A stretch of 32,476 nucleotides of DNA from Spirochaetota bacterium. GTDB lineage: Bacteria; Spirochaetota; JAHITG01; JAFGFC01. The stretch lies in assembly GCA_016931325.1 (NCBI GenBank), contig JAFGFC010000134.1, positions 1 to 32,476 on the forward strand, in the 5' to 3' direction. The notes below the pieces were generated by a model. The model saw only the letters and a list, made by a program, of their open reading frames with translations, did not search any database and had not been told where the DNA came from. This document shows, piece by piece, positions 4,793 to 12,419 of this stretch (position 1 is the stretch's first letter; each line of letters starts with the position of its first letter). The translations under genes and the position numbers were made by a program.

Positions 4793-4810
4793 GATAAATA
4801 CTATAATTCC

Positions 4811-4935
4811 GAGCCTGAAGGCTTCCCGAGAAATTCTTTAAGAATTTCCGGGACCAAATCCCTGAAATCCCTTTGGGATTTCTAGGGACGGCTACTGACT
4901 ACTATACTAACCTACCAGCCGAACGCAGTTTGGCT
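4811..4935. repeat. hairpin-rich intergenic element, copy 1
   Basis: Four consecutive inverted repeats lie between the small membrane gene and ribBA. From low to high coordinate: 4811-4825, a weak stem GCC/GGC around loop TGAA; 4825-4852, a 28-nt hairpin closed by CCCG/CGGG, with stem GAAATTCTT/AAGAATTTC and one bulged A; 4860-4887, a 28-nt hairpin closed by CCCT/AGGG, with stem GAAATCCC/GGGATTTC, loop TTT and one bulged T; 4917-4935, AGCCGAACGCAGTTTGGCT, eight pairs with one G-T, overlapping the stop codon of the upstream gene. The two central hairpins are 7 nt apart and have the same layout as the pair at 6191-6244. None is followed by a clear T-run on the minus strand, so a simple intrinsic terminator is not obvious. 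Confidence 0.75.
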
Positions 4936-5200
4936 AGTGGGGTGTGGCTTTGTGGAATAATTCCAATGATATCATGATACCCAGAATGACAGCCAGTATA
5001 TTGACATCAAAATTACGGATAAAAAATTCTGAAACAGATTTAAGAAGATAATTGAAAAGAACAGCCCCGATAAGGCCAATTAAAAAAGCCCCTATAAAAT
5101 GACCTATAAATTTGTATTTTAGGATATAATAATAAAGAGCACTGACTCCTGCTGTGGCTAAAATGATGACAACAAAGGAAAGGATTACTTTTCCTGTCAT
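4934..5200 (-). CDS. small integral membrane protein, unknown function
   Basis: An 88-residue, very hydrophobic protein with about three membrane helices: near residues 5-27, a glycine-rich one at about 32-52 (GHFIGAFLIGLIGAVLFNYL), and 66-80. I do not recognise the family. A strong AAAGGAG six bases before the ATG fixes the start. It lies 11 bases behind the FnIII-like lipoprotein and is probably in the same transcript. The gene ends inside a short hairpin (4917-4935), followed by the two-hairpin element. Confidence 0.65.
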   Translation of the reverse strand: MTGKVILSFVVIILATAGVSALYYYILKYKFIGHFIGAFLIGLIGAVLFNYLLKSVSEFFIRNFDVNILAVILGIMISLELFHKATPH

Positions 5201-5211
5201 ATTAATCTCCT

Positions 5212-6024
5212 TTATATATCAATATTCCCGACTAATTGCTGAAAAGCCCAGATAAACCGCATGGCCGGATCTGAGGACAGATCGAGACTTTCGATATATA
5301 TTTTAGCATAATGACCTGAAGAGGTTTTCAAAAGGATAACATATCCCTGTTGTACCTGAATAGGTATTTCACTCATCAAATATCCTTCTGTATCAGCCTT
5401 GTTCACTTTTTTCCAGTCATCATAATATCCCTTGGACTGGATCTGAGTATTATTTTTCCCGGTTAAAAAAGCCTTTTTACCTGATACATCCTGCACTGTA
5501 AATATAAAATCAAAAGGGGCAGATTGACTGAATGCAGTGAAACTGAATCCTTCATTCGTATTTAATACAACAGAGGCCGTACTTTCTATACGTGGTGTAG
5601 TAGAGGTTTCGTTACTCGGCTCACTTTTAAAATTCCTTATACTGTGAGCACGACAGATAAAATAATAGGTGATACCGTTTTCTATGGGTTTATCCTCATT
5701 ATCCCTGTTGATCTCGACAAAGAGGGAGGAGTCAGGATTGATTTCCTTACTGGTTTTCACTATTGTGGGTATCCCGCCGGTAGAAGGATTTTGAACAGGC
5801 AGAAGGCTACTCTGACTTTTTAGAGAAGAACTTTTACTGATATAGATATTAAATCCATCAAATTTATCTTCTTTATTATTGCTGAGAAATTCCAGCCGTA
5901 TTGTTCCGTTTCCAGGATAAGCCTTCAGGTTTGAAGGCGCATTCAGATATTCAGGCTGCACGATCTCTTCAACACCACAGCCGGCTAAAAACAGGATCAT
6001 CAAAGGTAAGATCAGTTTTTTCAT
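5212..6024 (-). CDS. lipoprotein with fibronectin type III-like domain
   Basis: An exported lipoprotein of 270 residues. MKKLILPLMILFLAGC is a textbook signal peptide with lipobox LAGC, lipidated at Cys16. Residues about 28-145 look like a fibronectin type III domain: APSNLKAYPGNGTIRLEF, then GFNIYISKS, and ITYYFICRAHSI near the end of the fold. The C-terminal half (about 150-270) is a second beta-rich region that I do not recognise, with a conserved-looking Trp-Lys (YYDDWKKV). No catalytic motif is seen. There is no Shine-Dalgarno: a consensus promoter ends 6 nt before the ATG, so translation may begin at the very 5' end of the mRNA. Confidence 0.8.
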   Translation of the reverse strand: MKKLILPLMILFLAGCGVEEIVQPEYLNAPSNLKAYPGNGTIRLEFLSNNKEDKFDGFNIYISKSSSLKSQSSLLPVQNPSTGGIPTIVKTSKEINPDSSLFVEINRDNEDKPIENGITYYFICRAHSIRNFKSEPSNETSTTPRIESTASVVLNTNEGFSFTAFSQSAPFDFIFTVQDVSGKKAFLTGKNNTQIQSKGYYDDWKKVNKADTEGYLMSEIPIQVQQGYVILLKTSSGHYAKIYIESLDLSSDPAMRFIWAFQQLVGNIDI

Positions 6025-6059
6025 AGGTCAAATTTATGCCAAACTCGGTAAAATGTCAA
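6022..6059 (-). promoter_or_regulatory. sigma-70-type promoter predicting a leaderless mRNA for the FnIII-like lipoprotein
   Basis: On the minus strand TTGACA (6054-6059) is followed by 17 nt, then TAAATT (6031-6036), then TGACCT and the ATG (6022-6024). Transcription normally starts about 7 nt after the -10 box, which is the A of the ATG itself. No ribosome-binding sequence fits in between. The thioredoxin gene at 26218 has the same arrangement. Confidence 0.7.
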
Positions 6060-6190
6060 GGAATTTTAACTCGTTAAAAATAAAGGGAATTAACCACTGG
6101 ATGCACGGAGTTCCCTGAAACTATTTTTATAATACGAAGATAGATATGCTAAAATTCCTGAATATCTAAAAAATTTTCAGCGGATTCAGC

Positions 6191-6244
6191 CCCGGGGAAT
6201 TCCCCGGGAGATAGCCCTTGGAATCATGTAGTGATTCCTAAGGG
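6191..6244. repeat. hairpin-rich intergenic element, copy 2
   Basis: Two inverted repeats lie just downstream of the batDE stop codon. 6191-6208 is the perfect palindrome CCCGGGGAATTCCCCGGG. After 6 nt, 6215-6244 is a 30-nt hairpin closed by CCCTT/AAGGG, with stem GGAATCA/TGATTCC, loop TGTAG and one bulged T. Read on the minus strand the order is a CCCTT hairpin, a short spacer, then a CCCGG hairpin, the same order and closing bases as the pair at 4825-4887. The first hairpin starts about 8 nt after the stop codon, so it may also protect or end the bat transcript; a T-run appears only about 20 nt beyond the second hairpin. Confidence 0.75.
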
Positions 6245-6252
6245 TGATCTCA

Positions 6253-8832
6253 TTATTTTTCGATGCGCTCGATATCCTTCGAATCTATCCAGCCATTGAA
6301 TCCATTAGGAAGTGAGATCTGGGTCCATCTTTGACTATAGTTTCTTTCCCTTACTTTCGTTCCTTCATGCAGAGTGAATATAACAGTAAAATCCTGACCG
6401 GGACCACTTCTCACCTCGCTTTCTGAAGCCAGGACAACACTGTCTATATGATTCTGGGCATGATAGACTTTGATCATAAACAGGATAAGAAAGAAAAGGA
6501 AGGCCATGACGATTGTCGGAAAAATACGGGCGGCCAGGCTTCGGTATAACACATTTTTTACCAGCCATTTGACAGCAAAGATGGCGACCAGAAGCCAGCT
6601 GAGGATAAAGACAAAGATAAAAAGAATATTGACATTGAATAGATCGTATACAAAAAATATGATCTTTGTGAACGGATTGTATTCCATTTCCTGGATACTG
6701 TCTACTTTTAGATTTTCTGCAAATTCCAGGTTGAACTTTACATCTCTGTCACGGGGAAGATATAATCTGGCCCGCTCATAATTTAAAATGGCCTCACCCA
6801 GCTGCGAGTTTTTAAAATAAGCATTCCCCAGGTTGTAATAAAGGTAGCCGTTTTTTACGCCTTTTTGCTTTATCGATTCATAGATCCCTATGGCTTTTTC
6901 ATAGTTGCCTGTTTTATAGTTTTTATTGCCTTGTTGAAATAGTTCGTTGACCGGACTTGGTTCGGAGAGCAAAGGAGAAAACCATAACAGCATGATAAAA
7001 AATATGATCGGTTTTATTTTATTGAACCATTCGATAATCGTTTCTCTCAGAGATCTTTCTTTCAAACTCGATGATTCCATATCATTGAAAAGTCCCTTTA
7101 TTTCATTTAAAAGAGTTTCATATTCTGTTTTTCCTGCTTTAGCCGGGGCATAACGGATCATATTCGCCTTATGGTATAAATCTGTGATAGATGTTACCAG
7201 GGCAAGGGGAACGTTCTCTTTTTCCAGTGATTTTTTAATCTCATCAATGACCAGGCTGGCGGAGGGTATATTCAGTTTGTCCCCGATATAACCGGTTAAA
7301 AGCTTTTCAAAATCATAAGCGATATCTATCAAATGGTGTGACCGTAACTTCTTTTCAATATCCATTATTCTTTTTCGTGCCAGTTTAAACGCACGGGAAG
7401 CCCGTGCAAATTTTATATCTGTTTCCATCTTTAATTTGTAACGGGAATAATAATAGATAAACCCAAGGGCAAAGAAAGGGAAAAGAACAAGGAGAAAAAA
7501 GCCCTTTTTCCTGTGGATATAAGCCCCCTCATTTTTTATACGGGAGACCTCTTTGATAAAACGGATGTCCTTCCCTACCATCTCAACGGGTGTTGAACCT
7601 GACCTGGTGATCGCTATACTGGCCGGCCCGGGTTGGGCATAAAGTTTAATCAGAGATGTTTTTAAAGTCATATACTTTTTTTTCATATAATTAAAATAAG
7701 AGAAACGGAACGGATTGATCCTTATCTCCCCGGCTGTATCGGGGATCAGGATATACTCAAAGGCTTTACTGCCTGTCAGGCCGGCAGGCGTTCGATTGAT
7801 ATTGATGGAGGAAGAAGAATCATAAAGTTTGACCTTCTCCCATGTCGGGGGCAGGGGCTCATTTATGGTCTTAATATTGCCTGTCCCGGAGATAACGACC
7901 TTGAGGACAAAAGGTTGATTCTGTTTGATCTTTGTGGTGGACAGTTTGGTGGATATCGCGAAATGTCCGACACACCCTTTAAAATCTTCAGGCTTGCCTT
8001 TATCGGGAAGGGGAAGGACACGGATTGAAAGGTCGTTCGCTTCCCTGATGACTCTTTTAGAGAAAAGAGAGAATAGATCGTCGATAATGAATTGAAATTT
8101 TGTTTTTCCTATTCTATGGACTCCCGAGGAGGTGGGGAAGAGGATTTTTCTCTCGAGAACCAGGGTCCTGTACTTTTTACTGTTAAGTGTCTCGATGGAG
8201 GATTTGATCTTCTGGGGCGGCGGGATATCCTCCACCCAGAACCCTGTAAAGGGGGGACTTTCTTTCCCATAATTATGACTGAGAGTGGCATTATTGATAT
8301 AGAGCTTGTACTGGAAATTGACCGGCTCATTGATATAGGCTGTACTTTTATTTATCAGCGCTTTGACAAAAACTTCGGATTGCTCTCTCTGACGGAAGAC
8401 CTGTTCTTCAATAGTGGGTGTTTTACCTGGTTTTTTCCCCCTTTCCTTGACCACTTTAATGGTGATGGGTTGTGATTGATAGACCTTTCCCTGATATTCT
8501 ATCTTGGCGGATCCAATGGTAAAGCTGCCCTCCTTTTGAGGGATAACAGCATAATTGTATATGACAGACGAGGAAATGACCCCATTAATGAATTGGAAGG
8601 AGGATGAAGTCCCGGCATTATAAATCTGGAAATCAGCAAAAGAAGGCAATTGAGGTTTGGGTAAATTTCCGGCTTTACCTGATACCGTGATAGAATAGTT
8701 AATGCGTTCTCCAATCGCGGCTTCTGTTTCACTTACAGACGCTTCGATCGAGATGTCCTGGGCCGAAAGGTGAACGGACAGGATATAGAAAAGTAATAGA
8801 AAAAGTATACTACCAATCCTTTTCAATGACAA
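6253..8832 (-). CDS. BatD-BatE fusion protein of the Bat operon
   Basis: One 859-residue frame joins two Bat proteins. The BatD part has a signal peptide (1-24), a long beta-sandwich region (about 25-440; IEASVSETEAAIGERINYSI is a typical BatD opening), a membrane helix (444-462) and a cytoplasmic helical domain containing MIRYAPAKAGKTEYETLL (about 559-574). The BatE part has a helix (about 607-623), a TPR block (about 625-710; YLYYNLGNAYFKNSQLGEAI), two more helices (about 733-755 and 771-789) and a C-terminal SH3-like domain (about 797-857; SEVRSGPGQDFTVIFTLHEG). The two are usually separate genes. The first codon shown is TTG at 8832; another TTG at 8826, six bases after AAGGGGG, fits the binding site better and still leaves a signal peptide (MKRIGSILFLLL). 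It overlaps batC by 23 bases and is the last gene of the operon. Confidence 0.85.
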   Translation of the reverse strand: MSLKRIGSILFLLLFYILSVHLSAQDISIEASVSETEAAIGERINYSITVSGKAGNLPKPQLPSFADFQIYNAGTSSSFQFINGVISSSVIYNYAVIPQKEGSFTIGSAKIEYQGKVYQSQPITIKVVKERGKKPGKTPTIEEQVFRQREQSEVFVKALINKSTAYINEPVNFQYKLYINNATLSHNYGKESPPFTGFWVEDIPPPQKIKSSIETLNSKKYRTLVLERKILFPTSSGVHRIGKTKFQFIIDDLFSLFSKRVIREANDLSIRVLPLPDKGKPEDFKGCVGHFAISTKLSTTKIKQNQPFVLKVVISGTGNIKTINEPLPPTWEKVKLYDSSSSININRTPAGLTGSKAFEYILIPDTAGEIRINPFRFSYFNYMKKKYMTLKTSLIKLYAQPGPASIAITRSGSTPVEMVGKDIRFIKEVSRIKNEGAYIHRKKGFFLLVLFPFFALGFIYYYSRYKLKMETDIKFARASRAFKLARKRIMDIEKKLRSHHLIDIAYDFEKLLTGYIGDKLNIPSASLVIDEIKKSLEKENVPLALVTSITDLYHKANMIRYAPAKAGKTEYETLLNEIKGLFNDMESSSLKERSLRETIIEWFNKIKPIIFFIMLLWFSPLLSEPSPVNELFQQGNKNYKTGNYEKAIGIYESIKQKGVKNGYLYYNLGNAYFKNSQLGEAILNYERARLYLPRDRDVKFNLEFAENLKVDSIQEMEYNPFTKIIFFVYDLFNVNILFIFVFILSWLLVAIFAVKWLVKNVLYRSLAARIFPTIVMAFLFFLILFMIKVYHAQNHIDSVVLASESEVRSGPGQDFTVIFTLHEGTKVRERNYSQRWTQISLPNGFNGWIDSKDIERIEK

Positions 8833-9475
8833 CCCCCTTGATTTTAACTTTTTTTACCTTTTTCTGGGTTTTCTTTTCTTCGTCTTTAAGGGCTTCTAAA
8901 AGCCGCTGAGCTTCTTCTTTTGACATCTTTTTGTTATCTGATTGCTCGGGCCCCTGGTCTTCTCCTTTTTTCTGTTGCCCCTGAGGTGTTTTGGGTTTCT
9001 GATCTTGATCCTGTTCTTTTTTTTCGTGCCGGGATGAGGAGGAAGGTTGCATCATCTGCTGCATTCTTTTCAAAGCGATCTGAATATTATATTTTGCATC
9101 TTCATTGTCAGGATTCAGTTTTAGAACCTGTTTGTAATGGTCAATGGCTTTAGGATAATCATGGAGCCGGAAGTAGGCATTACCCATATTATAGAATGTC
9201 TTTTCCATTATTTTTTTATCCTGTGCATTTACCTTTTGATACTCTTCCAAACTTTTATCATAAAGCCTTTTTTTATAATATACATTTCCCATATTGTAAT
9301 GAAGAATGGGGGAATGCGGGTTTTCCAGCAGAGCCGCCGTATAGGTCTTTAATGCCTTGCTGTATTCTTCTTTTTTATATAAACGGTTAGCCTTATTATT
9401 ATTAAAAGCCGGATTGGCCATGACTGATTTGATAAACAGGAAGGTCATTAAGAACAGAATGATTTTACCCTTCAT
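8810..9475 (-). CDS. batC: BatC, periplasmic TPR protein
   Basis: A 221-residue secreted TPR protein. The ATG at 9475 gives a clean signal peptide (KGKIILFLMTFLFIKSVMA) and has GGGAGAG five bases upstream; the frame is open further up, but that extension lies inside batB. Three to four TPR units occupy about residues 28-130 (ILHYNMGNVYYKKRLYDKSL, FYNMGNAYFRLHDYPKAI). A Gln/Lys/Asp-rich low-complexity linker (PSSSSRHEKKEQDQDQK and on) follows. The C-terminal tail MSKEEAQRLLEALKDEEKKT is the conserved BatC signature. Bat proteins are linked to oxygen or peroxide tolerance in Bacteroides and studied in Leptospira; BatC probably forms part of the periplasmic complex with BatA, BatB and BatD. Its start overlaps batB by 11 bases. 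Confidence 0.9.
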   Translation of the reverse strand: MKGKIILFLMTFLFIKSVMANPAFNNNKANRLYKKEEYSKALKTYTAALLENPHSPILHYNMGNVYYKKRLYDKSLEEYQKVNAQDKKIMEKTFYNMGNAYFRLHDYPKAIDHYKQVLKLNPDNEDAKYNIQIALKRMQQMMQPSSSSRHEKKEQDQDQKPKTPQGQQKKGEDQGPEQSDNKKMSKEEAQRLLEALKDEEKKTQKKVKKVKIKGVVIEKDW

Positions 9476-10469
9476 TTTTTCTCTCCCGTAAAAATATCTC
9501 CCAGATAAGGAAGAGTACAGCGGGCAAAAGAAAATACTGGAATCTATCTTCTTTTTGGGTGAATTGTCTTCCATAGATCTTTTTTCGTTCCATTTTGAGT
9601 ATATCGTCATAAATTTTATTTAGTTCAATCTCTCCTTCGGTGGCCCGGTAATATTTACCCCCTGTTTTTTGAGCGATCTTTTCCAGGGTCATCTCATCCA
9701 ATCGTGATAGAACCGGATTTCCTTTTTTATCTTTTTTATACCCCATGATAACACCCTCATTTTTCAAAGGGATCAGATCACCTGAGGTAGTTCCTATGCC
9801 GATCGTAAAAATAACGACCCCTTCTTTTTCAGCTTCTTCAGCCGCCTGCAGAGCCTCACCCTCATGGTCTTCCCCATCGGTCAAAAGGATCATCACCTTA
9901 TATTTTCGTTCCACTTCAGGATAAGACCTGGTGGCTAACTGGATCGCTTTTCCAATATCAGTTCCGGGAACAGGGATAGAGTCAGGACCGACAATATCCA
10001 TATACATTTTAGCCGCCGCATAATCTATGGTGAGGGGGCATTGCAGAAAGGATGTCCCGGCAAAGATAATGATACCGATTTTATCACCTTTCAGTATATC
10101 AATGAACTCTTCTATCTCGTGTTTGGCTTTTTCCAGACGGTTGGGCACCATATCATTGGCCAGCATGCTCTTGGAGACATCCAGAATAACAAAAAGGTTC
10201 AATCCCTTCCGGGACATTTTTTGTAATTTCGTACCAAATTGAGGACGGGCCAGGGCCATAAAGAGAAAGAACAGAGAAAGGGTTAAAAGGAGGGCCTTGT
10301 GAGTATATCGCTTGAAACTGATATTAGGGGAAAATTTTTTTAAAAGAGCCAGGGAAGCGAATTTGGACAATAATCTCATTTTTAATTTTCTGGCAAAGGA
10401 GAACACAAAGATCAGAGCGGCCAGGATAATGAGCATGAAATAGATGATGTTTTCATGTAAAAATTCCAT
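9465..10469 (-). CDS. batB: BatB, membrane VWA-domain protein
   Basis: A 334-residue membrane protein with a von Willebrand A domain. Two N-terminal helices (about 8-27 and 50-70) come first. The VWA domain has an intact metal-binding MIDAS motif, DVSKS in VILDVSKSMLANDMVPNRLEKAKH, plus LLTDGEDHEG and the late motif ATEGEIELNKIYDDI. A C-terminal helix (FLLPAVLFLIWEIFL) anchors it again. The ATG at 10469 follows the batA stop by 4 bases with AAGGTG just upstream; an earlier in-frame start would add 32 residues inside batA and is less likely. It is a paralogue of the batA product next door, as in other Bat operons. Confidence 0.92.
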   Translation of the reverse strand: MEFLHENIIYFMLIILAALIFVFSFARKLKMRLLSKFASLALLKKFSPNISFKRYTHKALLLTLSLFFLFMALARPQFGTKLQKMSRKGLNLFVILDVSKSMLANDMVPNRLEKAKHEIEEFIDILKGDKIGIIIFAGTSFLQCPLTIDYAAAKMYMDIVGPDSIPVPGTDIGKAIQLATRSYPEVERKYKVMILLTDGEDHEGEALQAAEEAEKEGVVIFTIGIGTTSGDLIPLKNEGVIMGYKKDKKGNPVLSRLDEMTLEKIAQKTGGKYYRATEGEIELNKIYDDILKMERKKIYGRQFTQKEDRFQYFLLPAVLFLIWEIFLRERKNEG

Positions 10470-10473
10470 ATCG

Positions 10474-11487
10474 TTACGGCACCTTGATAAAAATAATATT
10501 TTCCAGAACAATATAACATAAAATGAAAAACAAGGCAATCCATAAAAGAAAACCAAACAGTTCATTATACTGGAAAAATTGTCTTGCCTTTATTTTTGTC
10601 TTTTCCAGAGAATCTATTTTTTGATATATCCTCTTTAGTGATCCGGCGTCAGTAGCCCGGAAATATTTTCCACTGGTGATAAAAGCGATCTCCTTCAATG
10701 TCTTTTCATCCAGTTTTGTCAGAACAAAGGACCCATCTTCATTTCGAAAATACTGTTTACCGAACCGGGGATGAAAGAAGGGGATAGGGGCTCCGCCGAG
10801 TTTACCCACTCCCACCGTATAGATCTTGATATTCATAGCTGAAGCCGCCTGTGCGGCGGTTACGGGATCAATGAGCCCGCTGTTGTTCTCGCCATCTGTT
10901 AAAAGAATAATAACTTTACTTTTCGCCCGGGAAGGCTTTAATCGATTGACACAGTTGGCCAGGGCCATTCCGATAGCCGTACCATCATCGATCATACCGA
11001 AGCGGATCTGCTTTAAATAATCAAGAATAATATTGTAATCAAAAGTGAGAGGACTCTGAGTAAAACTTTCCCCGGCAAAGATAACCAGCCCCATGCGATC
11101 TGTTTTTCTGCCTTTGACAAAATCAGAGAGTACTTTTTTTGCAACGGTCAACCGGTTATTGGGCTTGAAGTCCTCAGCCATCATACTTCCGGAAATATCA
11201 AGGGCCAGCATAATGTCGATCCCTCTCATTTCCGTCTCAAGTGACCGCTGACCAGCCTGAGGTCTGGCCAGGGCCAGGATCATGAAGAAAAGAGCCGCTA
11301 ATTTCAGGATTAAAATGTATTTTCGGTAGGGAAAACGGGAAGGGGTCTTCAATTCTTTTATTTTTTCCAGAGAAGGGTATTTAATGGCAGAAAAATATTT
11401 ATACGATTTGTGAAAAAATATTAACCAGATAAGAAATCCAAGAACAGGCAAAAAGATAAAAAGATAAAAGCCACTATAGAATCTCAT
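10474..11487 (-). CDS. batA: BatA, membrane VWA-domain protein
   Basis: A 337-residue protein with the layout helix (about 5-25), helix (about 53-73), VWA domain, C-terminal helix (about 308-330). The MIDAS is intact: DISGS in LALDISGSMMAEDFKPNNRL; LLTDGENNSG and ATDAGSLKRIYQKIDSLEKT are further family landmarks. From family knowledge VWA proteins of this operon are partners of the MoxR AAA+ ATPase and face the periplasm. The ATG overlaps the stop of the upstream BatD-like gene by 4 bases (ATGA), which points to translational coupling. Confidence 0.93.
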   Translation of the reverse strand: MRFYSGFYLFIFLPVLGFLIWLIFFHKSYKYFSAIKYPSLEKIKELKTPSRFPYRKYILILKLAALFFMILALARPQAGQRSLETEMRGIDIMLALDISGSMMAEDFKPNNRLTVAKKVLSDFVKGRKTDRMGLVIFAGESFTQSPLTFDYNIILDYLKQIRFGMIDDGTAIGMALANCVNRLKPSRAKSKVIILLTDGENNSGLIDPVTAAQAASAMNIKIYTVGVGKLGGAPIPFFHPRFGKQYFRNEDGSFVLTKLDEKTLKEIAFITSGKYFRATDAGSLKRIYQKIDSLEKTKIKARQFFQYNELFGFLLWIALFFILCYIVLENIIFIKVP

Positions 11488-12419
11488 GCTTTGCTTGTGC
11501 TCCCCGATCGTTTGGTCCTGTTAATGATATTTCGAGCCAAAGGGACGATTTGATTGATCTGTGCTTTTGCAGGGATATATTTGGCAAATTTAACCATATC
11601 CGATTCATCAAAAAAATAACAGAGGTTCTTGAATACTTCTTTGGAATAGAGCTGGCTTTTGATTTCCTCCAGGATCTCGTATGAGGTCCTTTCCATTGTA
11701 GGAATGGAATATCTCCTGTGCAGATAGTACCGCAGGATCTCGTTCAGCTCGAAGTAAAACTGTTTTATTTTTCCCTGCGAGAGATAATTTTTCTTTAAAA
11801 GATCATTGATCCTTTCCAGGGCCTGGATATCTTCTTCTATCGATGGAATGAGCGGTTGTTCTGTTCTTTCTTTTCTTTTTGATATTTTTTCCAGCAGACA
11901 GTAGATAAGCCAGGAGGATATTCCAAGGATAAACAGTGAAAAAAGAGCATAAAGCCATTCACGAGCAGGCATATCTTCAGTCCCGGCTATGTCCCGGATG
12001 TCATCTTTGTCATCAGCCCGGGAGGGAACGGGTATTATTTTAATGATGATAGGCTCGGATTGGACCCATCCCTTTTGCCCTTTCCTGTTCAGATAAGTAA
12101 TATCCAGTGGGGGGATCTCGAATTCTCCCAGATTAAAGGCCGATAGGATATACTCGAGTTTTTTTGCAAAGACGCCTTCCTGATCCTCATCAGACACGTT
12201 ATAATCTATTATTTCAAAAGAACCTAATTTTACACCTGAAGGAGGAAGATCGACCTTTATATCTTTTTCATACGTGATGAGGATCCTGTATCTTATCAGA
12301 TCGCCGATATGAGCCACGGATTTATCCACTTCTGTTTTTACTGACAGGGGGCCGGCTCCAAGTTCTATGGCAGACAGAAAAAATAGAAAAAAAAGAAAAC
12401 GCTTCAAAATGTTCATCAT
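11484..12419 (-). CDS. BatD-like membrane protein of the Bat operon
   Basis: A 311-residue protein with a signal peptide (1-22), a beta-sandwich domain (about 24-150; SVKTEVDKSVAHIGDLIRYR), one membrane helix (about 154-175) and a cytoplasmic helical domain (about 190-300). The C-terminal domain resembles the one after the membrane helix of the BatD-BatE protein: here LRYYLHRRYSIP and DMVKFAKYIPAKA, there LTGYIGDKLNIP and NMIRYAPAKA. It therefore looks like a short paralogue of the BatD core, of the sort often found between the DUF58 gene and batA. Its precise role is unknown. An 85-base gap separates it from the DUF58 gene, the only real gap inside the operon; CACAGG precedes the ATG. Confidence 0.8.
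   Translation of the reverse strand: MMNILKRFLFFLFFLSAIELGAGPLSVKTEVDKSVAHIGDLIRYRILITYEKDIKVDLPPSGVKLGSFEIIDYNVSDEDQEGVFAKKLEYILSAFNLGEFEIPPLDITYLNRKGQKGWVQSEPIIIKIIPVPSRADDKDDIRDIAGTEDMPAREWLYALFSLFILGISSWLIYCLLEKISKRKERTEQPLIPSIEEDIQALERINDLLKKNYLSQGKIKQFYFELNEILRYYLHRRYSIPTMERTSYEILEEIKSQLYSKEVFKNLCYFFDESDMVKFAKYIPAKAQINQIVPLARNIINRTKRSGSTSKA

Follow-up and report, generated by a model that had tools for sequence, protein, structure and literature searches.

Very small mobile repeats usually stay within close relatives and depend on a single transposase. The MITEs and PATEs derived from IS200/IS605 are non-autonomous and have hairpins at both ends, and their transposase class is expected to act without target duplication. 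In the mitochondria of fungi and algae, double-hairpin elements and GC clusters are small mobile hairpin pairs in non-coding DNA, and the GC clusters nest. PATEs have been mentioned in PMC3119063 and PMC7290912. The REPs, BIMEs/REPINs and TnpA-REP (RAYT) systems are built on short intergenic palindromes that occur in high copy number and as inverted pairs (PMC2817692, PMC3733652, PMC8266576). Some REP dimers have been reported within longer palindromes (PMC3733652), and a survey of REPs across phyla leaves the Omnitrophota unmentioned (PMC12306157). REPs are themselves the targets of insertion sequences such as IS1397 and ISPpu9 (PMC1525189, PMC8450116).

Here, we analyse a stretch of 32,476 nucleotides (the window) from a Spirochaetota genome, in which a preliminary description had noticed two copies of an intergenic double hairpin on either side of two genes. 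We report that this double hairpin is probably a mobile DNA element, about 61-75 bp long and non-autonomous, and that such hairpins likely make up a new family. A search for prior descriptions found none that matches in the searchable literature (open-access papers only).

Like the GTAG/CGTC-tagged REPs, the double hairpins are short, high-copy intergenic palindromes in inverted pairs and carry a bulge, a feature on which recognition by the enzyme depends strongly in the E. coli REPs. They differ from REP/RAYT systems, however, in that they lack a GTAG or CGTC tag, share their structure and partly their sequence among several phyla, form a discrete unit with precise empty sites, and have no RAYT nearby, none being detected in several carrier genomes. 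With the IS200/IS605-derived MITEs and PATEs they share non-autonomy, terminal hairpins and insertion without target-site duplication, but no parent insertion sequence sharing their ends was found within 1.0 Mb or around 31 Y1 genes; the lack of a target-site duplication also separates them from classical MITEs, which depend on a DDE transposase. The mitochondrial double-hairpin elements and GC clusters are organellar and of other sequence, whereas the present element occurs in bacterial and phage genomes. As with IS1397 and ISPpu9, palindromic repeats serve as insertion targets, but those insertion sequences bear genes, whereas the double hairpin is a gene-less unit of 61-75 bp that also targets itself.

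Two double hairpins in the window

The two-hairpin layout that had been described on the minus strand, with stems differing between the two sites, proved accurate in both sequence and fold, and the single bulged base beside the closing CCC/GGG is present in three of the four hairpins, as claimed. At site 1 (minus strand, 4888-4824), hairpin 1 reads TCCCT-A-GAAATCCC-AAA-GGGATTTC-AGGGA and is followed by the spacer TTTGG and by hairpin 2, TCCCGG-AAATTCTT..AAGAATTTC-T-CGGGA; site 2 (minus strand, 6244-6190) reads CCCTT-A-GGAATCA-..-TGATTCC-AAGGG, then a spacer and CCCGGGGAATTCCCCGGGG. The z-scores of the folds are -5.00 (site 1) and -5.15 (site 2), and each site beats 200 of 200 dinucleotide shuffles. 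Two covariance models were used: R1, from eight copies of the composite (double hairpin with its REP) in the window's genome, with site 2 left out, and R2, from the core. R1 recovered site 2, which was absent from its training set, with 29.7 bits (E 2e-5 in 267 kb); the two sites are therefore related, and a chance resemblance is out. The features are as follows.

4809..4823, minus strand: 3' part of the interrupted REP, AGCCTTCAGGCTCGG (pattern with 66 matches per strand; reversed control 0 and 3)
4824..4853, minus strand: hairpin 2, the inverted partner, with a bulged T on its 3' (outer) side (fold; R2 match)
4854..4858, minus strand: inter-hairpin spacer TTTGG, GGGATTTGGTCCC junction (sequence; alignment A2)
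4859..4888, minus strand: hairpin 1, with a bulged A at 4883 on its 5' (outer) side (fold; R2 match 4888-4824, 77.1 bits)
4889..4895, minus strand: 5' part of the interrupted REP, GTAGCCG, with GTAG at 4895-4892 (sequence; bare GTAGCCGAGCCTTYAGGCTCGG copies elsewhere in the genome)
4934..5200, minus strand: gene for a small membrane protein of 88 aa, outside the element (ORF; position and order as in G001; adjacent to the lipoprotein gene in G004)
5212..6024, minus strand: gene for an FnIII-like lipoprotein of 270 aa, outside the element (ORF; homologues 56% identical in G001 and 38% in G004)
6190..6244, minus strand: second double-hairpin copy, its CCCGGGGAATTCCCCGGGG hairpin without a bulge (fold; R1 29.7 bits at 6251-6180)

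Site 1 is a split REP, in which GTAGCCG (4895-4889) and AGCCTTCAGGCTCGG (4823-4809) enclose the 65-bp double hairpin (4888-4824). The core pattern of the GTAGCCGAGCCTTYAGGCTCGG repeats has 66 matches per strand in the window's genome (0 and 3 in the control), and the interrupted host repeat qualifies as a REP by its GTAG tag, its palindrome, its high copy number and the presence of a RAYT in the genome. Site 1 is a double hairpin inserted into a GTAG-tagged REP. The same junction recurs in other copies and in both REP subtypes, GTAGCCG...CGG and GTAGGCG...CGC, which points either to more than one insertion or to a composite that spread and changed later. No REP surrounds the second window copy.

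A RAYT-type transposase, which the preliminary description had proposed to look for, was found in the genome together with its own GTAG-tagged REPs. It is a protein of 164 aa on contig C120 (1759-2253 of stretch L060) that matches the REP-associated tyrosine transposase family NCBIfam NF047646 with 129.7 bits (cut-off 80), and it is surrounded by fully symmetric GTAG...CTAC palindromes. Six palindromes of this type lie within 1.6 kb, and the arrangement resembles a complete REP/RAYT system in a spirochaete MAG. A second RAYT-family protein, of 306 aa, is encoded on contig C124 (728-1648 of stretch L061); it is flanked by inverted repeats, GGGGACGGACTTAAGTTCTTAAGT, and looks like a mobile element of its own.

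The two genes between the sites (4934-6024) had been thought to have possibly moved as a cassette. In G001, which belongs to the same spirochaete order but to a different family, the lipoprotein and small membrane protein genes stand as a pair followed by ribBA, in the order of the window, and in G004 the two genes are also adjacent; the neighbourhoods of the pair fetched from both genomes contain no double hairpin, nor does the homologous ribBA spacer of G001. The cassette idea thus fails because the gene pair is conserved without the hairpins, and the two genes are ordinary neighbours. Upstream of the lipoprotein gene, the window carries a run of BatD, TPR and VWA genes (6253-12419) of the type of a Bat aerotolerance operon; in G001, the upstream neighbour of the lipoprotein gene looks like deoC.

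Copies, structure and distribution

Searches supplied the counts for whole genomes; individual stretches were used for the finer analyses. With site 1 as the query, 45 DNA matches were found in the 2.88-Mb genome, and R1 gave 71 matches; model matches are counted on both strands, so that the places are fewer than the matches. Further copies therefore exist across the genome, and the finding that had been named as telling against a family, a search without further copies, did not come about. The core measures about 61-75 bp and is made up of two inverted hairpins joined by a spacer that resembles GGGAYTNNRTCCC; the stems vary with compensation, and each hairpin has a 1-nt bulge on its outer side. 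The copies are intergenic: 6 of 57 centres fall within an ORF of at least 120 aa, as against 78% of random positions. Several stretches of the window's genome (L008, L012, L015, L017, L027 and L067) hold long nested arrays of a few hundred bp, with hairpins within hairpins, and some of its arrays are bounded by GGTCGAATCC / TTCGACG palindromes. Several copies lie at or near contig ends (L002, L004, L009, L018-L022 and L025), so the repeats probably break the assembly.

In 25 aligned copies, 97.6% of the cells are paired (88.9% after shuffling) and the covariation score is 0.271 (0.108 after shuffling); most of the pairing and covariation signal is lost when the partners are slid by one base. 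The pair beside the bulge occurs as GC, UA and CG, and in a set of copies found by the model the bulge lies on the outer side in 23 of 25 and 24 of 25 hairpins. Covariation and the kept bulge speak for a function of the structure, although replication, too, can perfect palindromes. The selection for structure that had been suggested earlier is thus plausible, but palindrome-correcting replication could explain part of the covariation.

A scan of 84,980 genomes with the junction pattern returned 50 stretches, and 33 unique double hairpins, from 32 of these stretches, passed an explicit hairpin test. The carrier MAGs are labelled mostly Omnitrophota, and further NPL-UPA2, UBP3, Ratteibacteria, Elusimicrobia, Nitrospirota, Scalindua, Spirochaetes and unnamed bacteria; all carrier genomes are MAGs with phylum labels taken from their records, some of which may reflect binning errors, especially in two-copy cases. 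R2 gave 113 and 110 matches in the Omnitrophota MAGs G075 and G222, 72 in the spirochaete G071, 58 in NPL-UPA2 (G064), 12 in UBP3 (G065) and 10 in Nitrospirota (G072), and R1 gave 47 in G001. The Scalindua MAGs have two matches each, and such low-copy cases could be binning errors. In the phylum of G075, four of the seven genomes examined carry 18-110 R2 matches, and among 198 Spirochaetota genomes only two have the element, the window's own (G000) and G001. The pattern hits in Bacteroidales (two MAGs), Chloroflexi, Lachnospiraceae and Bacillota were dismissed as chance, with no model match; of the six genomes caught by chance pattern hits only, five had no R2 match and G081 had two weak ones.

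Two tailed-phage contigs from IMG/VR, with genes for terminase, portal and major head protein, carry one copy each, and blastn found no copy in named phage and plasmid records. On these contigs (L250 and L251) the identical copy sits within a further outer stem (CCCCCCTACATTTC...GAAATGTGGCAGGGGGG). In several Omnitrophota and Scalindua MAGs (L227, L231, L167 and L155/L177) there is a host palindrome, AATGAG-stem-GAACGAAGTG-stem-CGAATTNAACCCC, which is a cross-phylum repeat too, its stems changing yet compensating. The conserved right flank in NPL-UPA2 was considered as the coding part of a larger element and rejected, since it has no open frame.

Empty and occupied sites

The element inserts as a discrete unit and duplicates no target sequence; its targets are often palindromes, REPs or its own copies, and such insertions produce the nested hairpin arrays. 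In the NPL-UPA2 stretches L232 and L239, occupancy is reciprocal: site A (AATCCACC|CGAAGGGCC) is empty in one and occupied in the other, and at site B (GTAGCCCGCC|CTGTTCC) the situation is reversed. No target-site duplication was seen at these two sites or in the other empty/occupied pairs. When the unit was excised in silico, an empty counterpart of at least 80% identity was found for 34 sites; some of these counterparts prove less, being repeat arrays themselves instead of genuine empty targets. The best counterpart (98.4% over 61 nt) is in the window's own genome, and its target is another double hairpin. Insertion into the loop of another copy's hairpin is also seen (94.9% over 59 nt in G075; hairpin 2 of a second copy, L220 against L221). 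Several genomes have identical cores in different flanks. The two flanks of a copy are complementary to each other beyond permutation, both in the window's genome (0 of 5000) and in a mixed set (0 of 5000), as in an earlier set (1 of 2000); in G071, G064, G063 and G075 taken singly, the complementarity was not significant by permutation.

How the double hairpin may move

One explanation is that the double hairpins are typical inverted REP pairs, which would make them a REP/BIME (REPIN) family mobilised by the RAYT that the genome encodes. This enzyme is present and ringed by GTAG...CTAC palindromes, the composite at site 1 begins with GTAG, and the inverted pairs of bulged hairpins resemble BIMEs. 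We nevertheless regard the explanation as unlikely, because the core of none of the 25 aligned copies has a GTAG or CGTC tag, and insertion into a REP already in place accounts for the composite, bare REPs of both subtypes being present. Moreover, the surroundings of the 31 Y1_Tnp genes checked contain neither double nor bulged hairpins out to about 1.5 kb (positive controls of the bulged-hairpin search, 10 of 10), and Y1_Tnp was not detected in G075, G221 and G064, which have many copies and, as MAGs, may be incomplete. The neighbours of the RAYT on C120 are GTAG palindromes, not double hairpins, and this RAYT was rejected as the linked mobiliser for want of proximity and for its absence from some carrier genomes. 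Of the REP-like dispersed family that had been proposed, the dispersed and structure-conserving family stands, but the double hairpin does not itself qualify as a REP, and nothing ties it to the RAYT.

It has also to be considered that no transposition takes place, and that template switching at replication forks lets palindromes grow, correct themselves and copy into one another, while recombination spreads them. Such a process could yield perfectly compensating stems, outer stems that vary with compensation, nested arrays and duplication-free joining. Correction, however, should erase a single-base bulge, yet this is kept at one place in nearly every copy, and identical cores in different flanks, as well as one architecture and spacer in several phyla and phages, also make the explanation improbable. 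Intergenic placement, strong folds and covariation would also suit a structured RNA or transcript-end element (an mRNA stabiliser, attenuator or terminator) selected at the 3' ends of genes. We think this very improbable: the element is nearly symmetric under reverse complement, inserts into repeats in a nested manner, is found in so few Spirochaetota genomes and is missing from the homologous ribBA spacer of G001. A known RNA family was rejected as its identity, as Rfam gave no match above the gathering score, and so was a terminator, as neither window site is among the terminator-like sites found.

If the double hairpin is a non-autonomous mobile element, as we think probable, its folded single strand with the bulges would be what a hairpin-binding transposase of HUH/Y1-like style recognises when it acts in trans. 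The bulges, the hairpin targets and the lack of duplication suggest single-strand transposition by an HUH/Y1 enzyme; since the E. coli TnpA-REP recognises folded single strands in a bulge-dependent manner (PMC8266576), an HUH-like enzyme is a sensible model. Insertion may occur at palindromes that extrude hairpins as single strands, as could happen on the lagging strand, and phages are possible carriers between phyla. A longer autonomous form of the element was rejected, none being found in the 1.0 Mb fetched. It is possible, though we hold it tentatively and would not yet lean towards it, that the double hairpin represents a new class of mobile DNA, in which a gene-less pair of bulged hairpins of 61-75 bp recognises and enters hairpins, nests and crosses phyla, possibly by phage, the enzyme that moves it being neither a known REP transposase nor a known IS200/IS605 one.

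At about 63 bp, a unit that shares one bulged-hairpin architecture among Spirochaetota, Omnitrophota and other candidate phyla, leaves precise empty sites and favours palindromes would be very small natural mobile DNA. Double hairpins at contig ends may explain breaks in the assembly of MAGs. The double hairpin makes it testable how hairpins by themselves come to be recognised and inserted, what lies behind the compensating changes in the stems of DNA palindromes, and by what means uncultivated bacteria of different phyla exchange DNA.
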